From contig JAFDYI010000012.1 of assembly GCA_018267475.1 (NCBI GenBank), positions 1 through 64,000 on the forward strand: 64,000 bases of DNA. The letters run 5' to 3'. Shown here in pieces: positions 50,578 to 54,488 of this stretch; position 1 is the first letter of the stretch; each line of letters starts with the position of its first letter. The DNA is from Bacteroidota bacterium. Lineage in GTDB: Bacteria > Bacteroidota > Bacteroidia > B-17B0 > Aurantibacillaceae. The translations under genes and the position numbers were made by a program. The notes beneath the pieces are model-generated. The model worked only from the letters and a program-made list of their open reading frames with translations. It was not told the DNA's origin and made no database searches.

Positions 50578-51801
50578 ATGTGTAATAAAATTATTTTCAT
50601 ATCTATTGATGGCATGTGCGACCAACTAGGGCAATCGCAGGTGTTGCCCTATTTGGTTGGCCTTTCAAAAAAAGGGTTTCGTGTTTCTATTATCAGTGCT
50701 GAAAAAAAAAGTAATTTTTTTAAAAATAAAAACAACATACAGGCCATTGTTTTAGAGGCCAAAATATCTTGGCATTATTTTTTTTACGAAAGCACCGTTC
50801 CTGTTTTTTCCCCATACAAAAATGTGCGCAAGCTATACGCGCTTACAAAAAAACATATTTTACAAATCAATGAACCTGTTATTTTACACGCACGCAGTTA
50901 CTTGCCAGCACTAGTTGCCGGTTTGTTAAAGAAAAAGTTTAACTCCTTTTTTCTTTTTGATATGCGTGGTTTTTGGGCAGATGAGCGCCTTGATGGGAGC
51001 ATCTGGAAAGCATCAAGCCCGATACATAAAATACTGTATCGTTATTTTAAAAAGAAAGAAAAAGAGTGGATTCAGCAGGCCGACGGCATTATTACCCTTA
51101 CCCAAAACGCAAAAAACGAAATACACGGGTGGAACCTGTCGGCACCACCTATAGAAGTAATACCTTGCTGCGCTGACACGAATCATTTTTCTATAAAAAC
51201 AGATACAGAAAAAAGAGCCAATAGAAAAAAAATAGGCATACCCGAAGATGCGTATGTGCTGGGTTACTTAGGCTCTTTAGGCACTTGGTATATGCTGGAA
51301 GAGATGTTGGATTTTTTTATAGAAACGCAAAAAATAAAACCCAACAGCATTTTCTTTTTTGTGAGCAACGACGATAAAGAACTTATTTTAAAAAAAGCGA
51401 AAGAAAAAAACATAGCGTTATCTTGTTTTATGATACAGGCTGCATCCAGAACGGAGGTTCCCGAATTTATTTCTTGTTTTGATGCCAGCATTTTTTTTAT
51501 TAAACCTTTATACTCAAAAAAAGCATCGTCGCCCACTAAAATGGCAGAGGTATTGGCCTGCGGCATACCGGTTATTACAAATACTCAGGTAGGTGATGTG
51601 GATTTTATTTTGAACAAATATAAGGGAGGTGTTTTAGTGTCTGATTTTTGCACCGAAGCATATAAAAAAGCCCTTGCAGCATTAAACACAAATCAATATC
51701 AGCCTGAGGCGTGCAGGGATATAGCCCTGCAAGAGTTTTCTTTGCAAAAGGGAATTGATTTGTATCAAAAAACATACAAAGAGATTACAGGCAAAAAATA
51801 A
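50578..51801 (+). CDS. Glycosyltransferase, GT4 family
   Basis: The 407-residue protein has two Rossmann halves of a GT-B fold: an N-terminal acceptor domain starting IIFISIDGMCDQLGQSQVLP, and a donor domain with LGYLGSLGTWYMLEEML and the donor-binding SPTKMAEVLACGIPVITN motif (E-x7-E-like). It should move a sugar from a nucleotide donor to a lipid or polysaccharide acceptor in the cytoplasm. No other polysaccharide gene is near it, which is unusual. A weak -7 box (GTTCTTTG) lies at 50539-50546. Confidence 0.87.
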   Translation: MCNKIIFISIDGMCDQLGQSQVLPYLVGLSKKGFRVSIISAEKKSNFFKNKNNIQAIVLEAKISWHYFFYESTVPVFSPYKNVRKLYALTKKHILQINEPVILHARSYLPALVAGLLKKKFNSFFLFDMRGFWADERLDGSIWKASSPIHKILYRYFKKKEKEWIQQADGIITLTQNAKNEIHGWNLSAPPIEVIPCCADTNHFSIKTDTEKRANRKKIGIPEDAYVLGYLGSLGTWYMLEEMLDFFIETQKIKPNSIFFFVSNDDKELILKKAKEKNIALSCFMIQAASRTEVPEFISCFDASIFFIKPLYSKKASSPTKMAEVLACGIPVITNTQVGDVDFILNKYKGGVLVSDFCTEAYKKALAALNTNQYQPEACRDIALQEFSLQKGIDLYQKTYKEITGKK

Positions 51802-51836: not shown

Positions 51837-51867
51837 TTTGCTTGTATGTAAAAAAATAGTTTCTTTG
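51837..51867 (+). promoter_or_regulatory. Promoter of the lysC-lysA operon (-33 and -7)
   Basis: TTTG (51837-51840) and TTTCTTTG (51860-51867) lie 19 bp apart, as expected for -33 and -7 elements; the -7 box has one mismatch. Transcription should start near 51871, 136 bp before the lysC start. Confidence 0.5.
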
Positions 51868-51877
51868 CCTCCGCAAC

Positions 51878-51931
51878 ATGACGGTTTTCTTATCTATAAA
51901 GCATAAGTATAAATGGCTTCCAAGCCAGTAA
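51878..51931 (+). CDS. Possible leader peptide of lysC, 17 aa
   Basis: A 17-codon frame, MTVFLSIKHKYKWLPSQ, starts about 7 bases after the predicted transcription start and ends inside the first of two hairpins. Three of five codons from 8 to 12 are Lys (IKHKYK). This is the usual geometry of an attenuator leader peptide for an amino-acid operon, and the operon downstream makes lysine. The Lys count alone is not strong evidence in an AT-rich genome. No family is expected at this length. Confidence 0.4.
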   Translation: MTVFLSIKHKYKWLPSQ

Positions 51932-51964
51932 CCTTTTTATATAGAGCTACGGGCTCTATCTGTT
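51914..51964 (+). promoter_or_regulatory. Two hairpins in the lysC leader, possible attenuator
   Basis: Hairpin 1 pairs TGGCTT (51914-51919) with AAGCCA (51922-51927). Hairpin 2 pairs ATAGAGC (51941-51947) with GCTCTAT (51953-51959), followed by a weak T-run (TCTGTTTTC). AGCC of hairpin 1 (51923-51926) can instead pair with GGCT of hairpin 2 (51952-51955), so the two structures can exclude one another. I see no lysine riboswitch. Confidence 0.45.
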
Positions 51965-52006
51965 TTCAAAAAAATAATTCCAATCATCACAAAAAACAAA
52001 ACATAT

Positions 52007-53326
52007 ATGTTTTTAATTTTAAAATTTGGGGGCACCAGTGTAGGCTCGCCTCAGCGCATCAAAGATTTAGTTAGTCTAACCGTAAGCGATGCGCCCAAAA
52101 TAGTAGTGCTTAGCGCCATGAGTGGCACCACCAATGCTTTAGTAGCCATATCTCAAGCGTTGTATGAAAAAAACACCCAATCAGCAAGCGCACAAATACA
52201 GCAACTAAAAGAGAACTATCAGAAAGTAGTACAAGAGCTTTTTAGTAAAAAAGAAAGTGTGCAAAAAGCAACACAACTACTAACGCATCACTTTGATTAT
52301 ATACAAAATTTTACGCTCGATGTGTTTACCCCTAACGAAGAAAAAGCCATATTAGCACAGGGGGAGTTACTAAGTACCGCTTTATTTCACTATTATTTAG
52401 AAGAGCAGGGGGTAGCCTCGGTGTTGCTGCCGGCGCTTAACTTTATGCGCATAGACGAGCACGAAGAGCCTGATTTGCTTTTTATAGAAAAAAACCTAAA
52501 AGCAGAGTTAGCTCAACACCCAAGCACAAAATTGTTTATTACGCAGGGGTACATTTGCCGAAATTCTTTTGGAGAAATAGATAATTTAAAACGAGGCGGC
52601 AGCGATTATACAGCGTCTTTAATAGGGGCTGCTATTCAAAGTCCTGAAATACAAATATGGACCGATATTGATGGCATGCACAACAACGACCCGCGTGTTG
52701 TAGAAAAAACGCATTCTATTAGTGAGTTAAGTTTTGAAGAGGCAGCCGAGTTGGCTTATTTTGGGGCTAAAATTCTGCATCCTACCTGTATTTTACCGGC
52801 GCAAAAAAGAAACGTACCGGTGCGGTTAAAAAACACGTTGCAACCTCAAGCCGAGGGCACCATTATTGCCAATATCCCTGCGCAAGAGGGCATTAAAGCG
52901 GTAGCTGCTAAAGACGGCATTACGGTACTTAATATAAAAAGCGAACGAATGCTTTTAGCTTATGGTTTTTTGCGCGCTGTATTTGAAATTTTTGAACGCT
53001 ACAAAACACCTATTGATATGATTACTACGAGCGAGGTAGCCGTTTCTATTACTATTGATAACGATAAACAACTACCCGACGTTTTAAAAGAATTAAAAGA
53101 AATTGCGCAGGTAGAGGTAGAAAAAAATCAAACTATTATTTGCGTGGTAGGGCTGTTACCAAAAGATAAAGCAGGGTATGGGTTTAGGGTGCTGGAAGCC
53201 TTAAAAAATATCCCCATACGCATGGTTTCTTATGGAGGTAGCACGCACAATATATCGGTGTTGATTGATGGCGCGTATAAAAAAGAAGCCTTAATAGCCT
53301 TAAATAAACACGTGTTTCACTACTAA
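52007..53326 (+). CDS. lysC: Aspartate kinase, monofunctional
   Basis: The 439-residue enzyme begins with the kinase motif KFGGTSVGS (6-14), and has GGSDYTASLIGAAI and the WTDIDGMHNNDPR aspartate-binding segment. The C-terminal region (about 285-439) forms two ACT domains that bind the feedback amino acid. It phosphorylates aspartate, the first step to lysine, diaminopimelate, threonine and methionine. It lies 10 bp before lysA, so this isoenzyme is probably the lysine-responsive one; in other Bacteroidetes a second kinase is fused to homoserine dehydrogenase. Confidence 0.93.
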   Translation: MFLILKFGGTSVGSPQRIKDLVSLTVSDAPKIVVLSAMSGTTNALVAISQALYEKNTQSASAQIQQLKENYQKVVQELFSKKESVQKATQLLTHHFDYIQNFTLDVFTPNEEKAILAQGELLSTALFHYYLEEQGVASVLLPALNFMRIDEHEEPDLLFIEKNLKAELAQHPSTKLFITQGYICRNSFGEIDNLKRGGSDYTASLIGAAIQSPEIQIWTDIDGMHNNDPRVVEKTHSISELSFEEAAELAYFGAKILHPTCILPAQKRNVPVRLKNTLQPQAEGTIIANIPAQEGIKAVAAKDGITVLNIKSERMLLAYGFLRAVFEIFERYKTPIDMITTSEVAVSITIDNDKQLPDVLKELKEIAQVEVEKNQTIICVVGLLPKDKAGYGFRVLEALKNIPIRMVSYGGSTHNISVLIDGAYKKEALIALNKHVFHY

Positions 53327-53336
53327 TTATAACCTT

Positions 53337-54488
53337 ATGTCTTTACGTACCCATCTTCCGCTTTTTAATAAAACAGAAACCCCTTTTTATTTTTACGACT
53401 TAGCCTTGCTAAAAGAAACCTTGCACGCTATAAAAAAAGCAGCACCAAAAGAATATCACATCCATTATGCTTTAAAAGCCAACGCAAATCCTACTCTGCT
53501 ATCATACATACAACAGGCACGCTTTGGAGCCGACTGCGTAAGTGGTAATGAAATAAAACAAGCTATATCCAGCGGGTTTTCACCCGAAAAAATAGTGTTT
53601 GCCGGAGTAGGAAAAAGCGATAAGGAAATAGAATATGCGCTTGCTCAACCTATCTTTTGTTTTAATGTAGAAAGCATACACGAATTACAAATTATAAATG
53701 AGCTGGCCGCAAAACAACAGGTAACAGCATCGGTTGCGCTTAGAATAAACCCGAATGTAGATGCCTATACCCACAAGTACATCACCACCGGGTTAGAAGA
53801 AAATAAATTTGGAATAAACCCTTATGAGTTTGATGCTATTGTGCAAGAGATACCAAGTTTAAAACACATACAAGTAATAGGTTTGCATTTTCATATAGGT
53901 TCGCAAATAACGGAGTTAGCCCCTTTTAAAAAATTATGCTTAAAAATAAACGAGCTTAATAAGTGGTTTACTCAAAAAGGTTTGGATATAAGGCACATTA
54001 ACGTAGGCGGGGGCTTAGGCATCAACTACCAAGAGCCCGATAAAGAAGCTCTAGTAAATTTTGAATCTTATTTCTCTGTCTTTAAACAATTTCTAACTCT
54101 TGCTCCCAACCAAGAAGTGCATTTTGAGCTGGGCCGCTCGGTGGTAGGCCCTTGTGGCAGCTTAATAAGCCGCGTGTTGTATATTAAAAAAGGCCTGAAT
54201 ACTAATTTCGCTATTTTAGATGCGGGCATGACGGATTTAATACGCCCTGCCTTATATCAAGCCTATCATAAAATAGAAAACGTGTCGGCTGTTTTGTCAG
54301 AACCTTTAGTGCGTTACGATGTAGTAGGTCCTATTTGCGAAAGCAGCGATTGTTTTGGCAAGGCCGTTATGTTGCCTCAAACCCAAAGGGGAGATATGAT
54401 TGCTATTAGAAGCGCCGGTGCCTACGGCGAGGTGATGAGCAGCAATTATAACCTGCGCGAAAAAACAAAATCTGTTTTTGTTGAATAA
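53337..54488 (+). CDS. lysA: Diaminopimelate decarboxylase
   Basis: The 383-residue PLP enzyme has the PLP lysine in HYALKANANP (Lys47), the LHFHIGSQI motif, the glycine-rich NVGGGLGINY loop and the C-terminal GPICESSDCFG with the catalytic Cys. It decarboxylates meso-diaminopimelate to lysine, the last step of the pathway. Together with lysC it forms a two-gene lysine operon. It converges on porU2 with a 17-bp gap. Confidence 0.95.
   Translation: MSLRTHLPLFNKTETPFYFYDLALLKETLHAIKKAAPKEYHIHYALKANANPTLLSYIQQARFGADCVSGNEIKQAISSGFSPEKIVFAGVGKSDKEIEYALAQPIFCFNVESIHELQIINELAAKQQVTASVALRINPNVDAYTHKYITTGLEENKFGINPYEFDAIVQEIPSLKHIQVIGLHFHIGSQITELAPFKKLCLKINELNKWFTQKGLDIRHINVGGGLGINYQEPDKEALVNFESYFSVFKQFLTLAPNQEVHFELGRSVVGPCGSLISRVLYIKKGLNTNFAILDAGMTDLIRPALYQAYHKIENVSAVLSEPLVRYDVVGPICESSDCFGKAVMLPQTQRGDMIAIRSAGAYGEVMSSNYNLREKTKSVFVE

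Follow-up and report, generated by a model that had tools for sequence, protein, structure and literature searches.

Lysine genes are known to be under the control of the lysine riboswitch and of ArgP (PMC12925634). Among the cis-regulatory motifs listed for Bacteroidetes is Bacteroid-trp (PMC2864571), and for Flavobacterium psychrophilum hints have been reported that amino-acid operons are preceded by attenuators of the leader peptide type (PMC9723704). Leader peptides without a terminator precede mycobacterial cys operons, and Rho has been suggested to be involved (PMC1262725). Leaderless Cys-rich frames of mycobacteria have since been reported as regulators of the genes behind them (Canestrari 2020, as cited in PMC9031893). 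A search of open-access full texts revealed no previous account of a leader peptide or attenuator for lysine; the supplementary list of the F. psychrophilum study (PMC9723704) might include lysine genes. The original prediction, which proposed a peptide-based lysine attenuator before lysC-lysA, considered such control as not well described in Bacteroidetes. This is outdated in part, given the two reports on Bacteroidetes and a histidine leader in the very genome under study (see below).

The putative lysine leader is encoded on the plus strand of the window, i.e. the whole stretch of 64,000 nucleotides that was analysed, as are its predicted promoter, its hairpins and the two genes behind it. 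It precedes the genes for aspartate kinase (lysC, 52007..53326; TIGR00657, E 1e-86) and diaminopimelate decarboxylase (lysA, 53337..54488; TIGR01048, E 4e-124), both assigned above cut-off. The predicted promoter consists of a -33 box TTTG (51837..51840) and a -7 box TTTCTTTG (51860..51867), which is TAnnTTTG-like with one mismatch. There are 19 bases between the two boxes (pattern TTTG-N19-TnnnTTTG), a spacing shared by most leader-bearing relatives. The leader peptide frame MTVFLSIKHKYKWLPSQ has 17 codons (51878..51931), with the ATG at 51878 and the stop codon at 51929-51931. As judged by consensus match, 33 of 40 leaders have a TTTG 7-13 nt 5′ of the start codon of the mini-frame. The predicted promoter is directly upstream of the frame, and a 5′ UTR of merely a few bases is to be expected. 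The putative regulatory Lys codons 8, 10 and 12 (51899..51913) are AAG, AAG and AAA, positioned at 51899, 51905 and 51911. Hairpin 1 (TGGCT-TCCA-AGCCA, 51914..51927) follows directly 3′ of Lys codon 12 and is still within the frame. Hairpin 2 (51941..51959) has 8 pairs and a conserved UACG loop at 51948-51951; its tail is CTGTTTTC, and a short T-run is found 3′ of it (51963..51966). The promoter pair, frame, stop, Lys codons and hairpins had all been predicted, and each could be confirmed in the window sequence. A transcription start downstream of 51931, which had been named as speaking against the leader, is not indicated by the sequence, as the stretch from hairpin 2 to lysC in the window lacks a TTTG and hence a promoter of the Bacteroidetes type. 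The distance between the end of hairpin 2 and lysC is 47 nt; the hairpin leaves the lysC start untouched, and the region around this start is predicted to be open. An Rfam scan of the window revealed no family at threshold. The window alone would be no proof of an element, as the folding energy of its leader, taken as a single sequence, is unremarkable (z -1.4).

For comparison, we used 80 lysC upstream loci from the genus and family of the window, supplemented by loci from further families of its class; 69 of these represent distinct genomes from the family. Of the 69 family genomes, 42 have the leader before lysC (39 clear and 3 degenerate cases) and 27 lack it. The mini-frame is located about 100-190 bases before lysC (273 bases in L032) and mostly lies behind a Bacteroidetes-type promoter. 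In loci without leader there is often a promoter-like site immediately before lysC. Among 40 non-redundant leaders, codons 8, 10 and 12 specify Lys in 35, 34 and 35 cases, respectively, as had been predicted for the window. Lys is thus near-invariant at these positions while the third base is free, with AAA and AAG interchanged (18/17 at codon 8, 19/15 at codon 10, and 25/10 at codon 12). Codons 2-6 and 9 are variable. Such a pattern is expected if the encoded amino acid is under selection. Constraint is also seen at codon 7 (mostly ATA) and at codon 11 (TGT or TAT), due to either the peptide or the RNA.

The original prediction included the reservation that the Lys codons might have arisen by chance. 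This is answered by a comparison with dinucleotide shuffles: a mini-frame with three closely spaced Lys was found in 36 of the 80 upstream regions, as opposed to 1.9 in the shuffles. The strict rule of Lys at codons 8, 10 and 12 holds for 32 of the 80 loci in the family-centred set and for only one of 69 loci outside, taken from other Bacteroidota including Pontibacter, Sphingobacterium, Pedobacter, Bacteroides and Parabacteroides. The single outside locus (L121) has a GTG start and its leader context does not match, and we therefore treat it as a chance occurrence. Two deviating situations were encountered at the leader site. In L067, the leader is apparently decaying (MKNILYVKESCKLTAHSTHI) and hairpin 1 is broken while close relatives have it intact, representing a natural case of loss. 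L030 and L031, from the genus of the window, instead have the short frame MTRAF together with a GCC/GGC hairpin, which may be a remnant or a different element.

The element seems to be confined to lysC. A covariance model has one clear match in the own genome (E 2e-10); the next one has an E of 0.9, and no further copies were found below that value. Of 87 family genomes, 28 have a match, always a single one, and every clear match is before lysC, including one on a contig which ends inside this gene. The two weakest matches are from G090 (E 0.02), where lysC is on a different contig and the match is probably due to chance, and from a genus g7 leader (E 0.04). The predicted linkage to the lysC-lysA pair is borne out by the TIGR00657 and TIGR01048 assignments and by a lysA-like frame, which was found downstream of lysC in all 11 loci inspected. 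The upstream neighbour gene varies between loci. The lysine riboswitch (RF00168) had no match in the window or, with stricter filters, in the 87 family genomes, while four control genomes were positive.

Both hairpins are conserved and covary. Hairpin 1 starts within or just after Lys codon 12. Its mean z is -2.3 over 37 leaders, nearly all of them being below shuffles, and its stem differs by genus (TGGC/GCCA, TGCC/GGCA, GGCC/GGCC, GGCTC/GAGCC, GCGCTTC/GAAGCGC). The UACG loop of hairpin 2 is present in the closer relatives of the window. Its stem is variable in sequence but pairing is kept: 94% of the cells are paired, and changes on both sides occur in 4 of 5 pairs. Compensatory changes in both stems amount to 42 cells, compared to 16.6 +/- 2.9 in shuffles, and the covariation score is 0.358 compared to 0.175, the signal being lost when the partner is slid by one to three columns; these values come from a model-based alignment, which was fitted to the structure and is thus biased in its favour. 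Conservation of frame and stems in relatives had been set beforehand as the test, and both were found to be conserved. The original prediction also held that a ribosome stalled on the Lys codons could block hairpin 1, and this agrees with the position of the hairpin at codon 12, with its z values and with the covariation.

In all 18 leaders measured, the distance from leader start to UACG is 69-73 nt. The position of the stop codon floats among leaders, with frames of 14 to 18 codons. As the UACG distance is constant despite the floating stop, what is conserved is how far hairpin 2 lies from the Lys codons, and not the stop position. Genus g7 has its own version of the downstream part (L016, L018, L023, L064, L065, L066, L068, L070). 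Here, the place of hairpin 2 is taken by a longer stem, which has covarying arms and is interrupted by an internal loop, and an extra small hairpin occurs just before lysC. Neither of them is followed by a U-run.

For the switch itself, the original prediction has to be revised. It relied on pairing of AGCC from hairpin 1 with GGCT from hairpin 2. This complementarity exists in the window but is not conserved: over 32 leaders, hairpin 2 pairs no better with the 3′ arm of hairpin 1 than it does in shuffles (mean z -0.1). An anti-terminator formed by hairpins 1 and 2 was thus rejected as a conserved feature, and mutually exclusive switching between the hairpins finds no support in these leaders. 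Neither hairpin gave a signal of alternative pairing with the lysC start, the 5′ part of the frame or the stretch 3′ of hairpin 2. Blocking of hairpin 1 does not prevent the predicted formation of hairpin 2 in the window. The weak T-run after hairpin 2 is present in the window (T-score 2.6), but an ordinary U-tract terminator finds no support across the family. The tails of hairpin 2 have a mean T-score of 1.9 compared to a background of 1.6, determined from sequence further downstream, and most are not U-rich. True U-runs occur in a few members of genus g9 (TTTTTTT in L013, also L081 and L011), and in genus g7 there is no T-run after hairpin 2 at all.

The same clade possesses leaders with a textbook switch. 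In the own genome, hisG (on contig C20, outside the window) is preceded by the leader MYNQLHHTHHYHTCTQASRR (L197), a textbook histidine attenuator. It has a hairpin of -16.9 kcal/mol with TTTTTT and a nine-base anti-terminator match, and its terminator has a T-score of 5.0 compared to the 2.6 of the window leader. Two relatives (L194 and L195) have trp leaders (MKKQILNNSWWWFSTNVVNS and MKTQVVNKFWWWLSTTVVSS) with WWW, strong terminators of -17 to -19 kcal/mol and anti-terminator matches. The Rfam model misses them as their scores are just below the RF01692 cut-off. In the his and trp control leaders, anti-terminator pairing has z values of -3.1, -2.9 and -1.3, obtained with a simpler mononucleotide shuffle. 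In the window and in the own genome there is no match to Bacteroid-trp (RF01692) at gathering score, and LeuA was not found in the own genome. Compared to these textbook controls, the lack of an anti-terminator and the poor U-tracts suggest that the lysC leader either is a degenerate attenuator with weak termination or has another readout.

We thus consider it likely from the sequence comparisons that lysC has a lysine-sensing leader peptide, and assign a probability of about 0.78 to the reading that lysC-lysA is preceded by a lysine-responsive, ribosome-mediated leader. Comparative sequence support exists for the frame, the Lys codons, both hairpins, the fixed spacing and the lysC-lysA link; from these we infer that the codons sense Lys-tRNA, in which direction control acts, and what the readout is. 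The use of his and trp leader peptides in the own genome and family also counts in favour of this reading, as does the absence of the lysine riboswitch from the 87 family genomes. The transcript would begin near 51871 and almost immediately enter the 17-codon frame. When lysine is plentiful, the ribosome would pass Lys codons 8, 10 and 12, finish and depart, so that hairpin 1 can fold and most of the transcript would be lost before lysC. When charged Lys-tRNA is scarce, the ribosome would wait at codons 10 or 12 and hold hairpin 1 open, and lysC-lysA would be expressed. Several observations count against a lysine leader: no alternative pairing is conserved, most members have poor U-tracts, the Lys codons alternate with others while classical leaders have runs, and 27 of the 69 family genomes have no leader. 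Masking of the lysC start is less likely than control of transcription or RNA lifetime, because this start is 47 bases away from the end of hairpin 2 and predicted to be open. The readout probably acts on transcription, through weak termination or pausing at hairpin 2 or through Rho, rather than through a textbook terminator and anti-terminator.

A textbook attenuator, with hairpin 2 acting as intrinsic terminator and, upon stalling at the Lys codons, pairing with the 3′ arm of hairpin 1 to form an anti-terminator, is what the window by itself suggests, with the 8-pair hairpin 2 followed by GTTTT and a match of AGCC-A-GTA to TAC-G-GGCT. Real U-runs in several members of genus g9 (L013, L081) fit as well. 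We nevertheless regard it as unlikely in view of the alternative pairing at shuffle level (n=32), a hairpin 2 which in the window forms even with hairpin 1 blocked, a mean T-score near background, genus g7 without T-run, and the his and trp leaders of the clade, which do have strong terminators and anti-terminator matches. Somewhat better placed, though still tentative, is Rho-dependent or decay-based control, where a ribosome stalled close to the 5′ end protects the leader RNA against Rho or nucleases and the hairpins position ribosome or polymerase. This agrees with the absence of terminators, with the near-leaderless frame and with the fixed spacing of Lys codons, hairpin 1 and hairpin 2 despite the floating stop, and it has a precedent in the Rho model for terminator-less mycobacterial Cys leaders (PMC1262725). 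Against this, the present sequence analysis does not show Rho sites or nuclease targets. C exceeds G after hairpin 2, yet this is common in AU-rich UTRs.

Two further explanations dispense with a lysine sensor. The Lys-rich and partly conserved mini-frame may code for a small functional cationic peptide, with the hairpins being unrelated RNA stability elements. This is very improbable: the peptide has 14-20 aa, conservation concerns mainly the Lys positions and the residues overlapping the hairpins, no clear element exists away from lysC, and Lys matches the product of the operon. Hardly any weight can be given to the idea that hairpin 2 only terminates the upstream gene and that the mini-frame is fortuitous. 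In the window, a glycosyltransferase gene on the same strand indeed ends upstream of the leader, at 51801. However, the leader persists in L004, L006, L009 and L011, where the upstream gene is on the opposite strand, and the Lys codons are conserved; a function of hairpin 2 as upstream-gene terminator was thus rejected. For the lysine-responsive leader, the readout would be either non-classical or degenerate; Rho, pausing and decay, which look alike at the level of sequence, are candidates, as is weak intrinsic termination.

By its sensor part, the lysC leader comes close to the definition of a ribosome-mediated attenuator, but not by its switch part. As in the enterobacterial trp, his and thr attenuators, there is an own promoter (as predicted by consensus match), a short frame with codons for the pathway product, a hairpin overlapping the control codons and a second hairpin before the first gene. 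In contrast to these, the lysC leader is probably specific for lysine, has no conserved anti-terminator, mostly lacks a U-tract after hairpin 2, and has alternating Lys codons instead of runs. Bacteroid-trp (RF01692) is also a leader-type element before an amino-acid gene in Bacteroidetes, and its sub-threshold relatives in the family of the window carry frames such as MKKQILNNSWWWFSTNVVNS. It has Trp codons, a strong terminator and a clear anti-terminator, and the lysC leader differs from it in sequence and structure. With the lysine riboswitch (L box, RF00168), the lysC leader would share control of lysC in response to lysine, but the riboswitch binds lysine directly by a large aptamer and is absent from the window and the 87 family genomes. 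The mycobacterial leaderless Cys-rich frames (PMC1262725; Canestrari 2020, cited in PMC9031893) resemble the lysC leader in that they are short, lie at the 5′ end or close to it, contain codons for the amino acid of the pathway and have no obvious terminator. They differ in sensing cysteine, in having contiguous codons and in occurring in Actinobacteria, and no two-hairpin module of the lysC-leader kind is described for them in PMC1262725 or PMC9031893. Perhaps, though with less than even odds, the lysC leader is a new kind of switch in Bacteroidota, lysine-specific and without U-tract terminator or anti-terminator, in which a 5′-proximal ribosome acts together with two hairpins, one located at the Lys codons and the other, capped by UACG, at a fixed distance. 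Since the clade holds both leader types, textbook his and trp leaders and a lysC leader with the same type of sensor but without the textbook switch, gene control by a stalled ribosome without terminator and anti-terminator becomes directly testable. Compared to the known systems, the amino acid sensed, lysine, is probably new, and the switch is probably different too.
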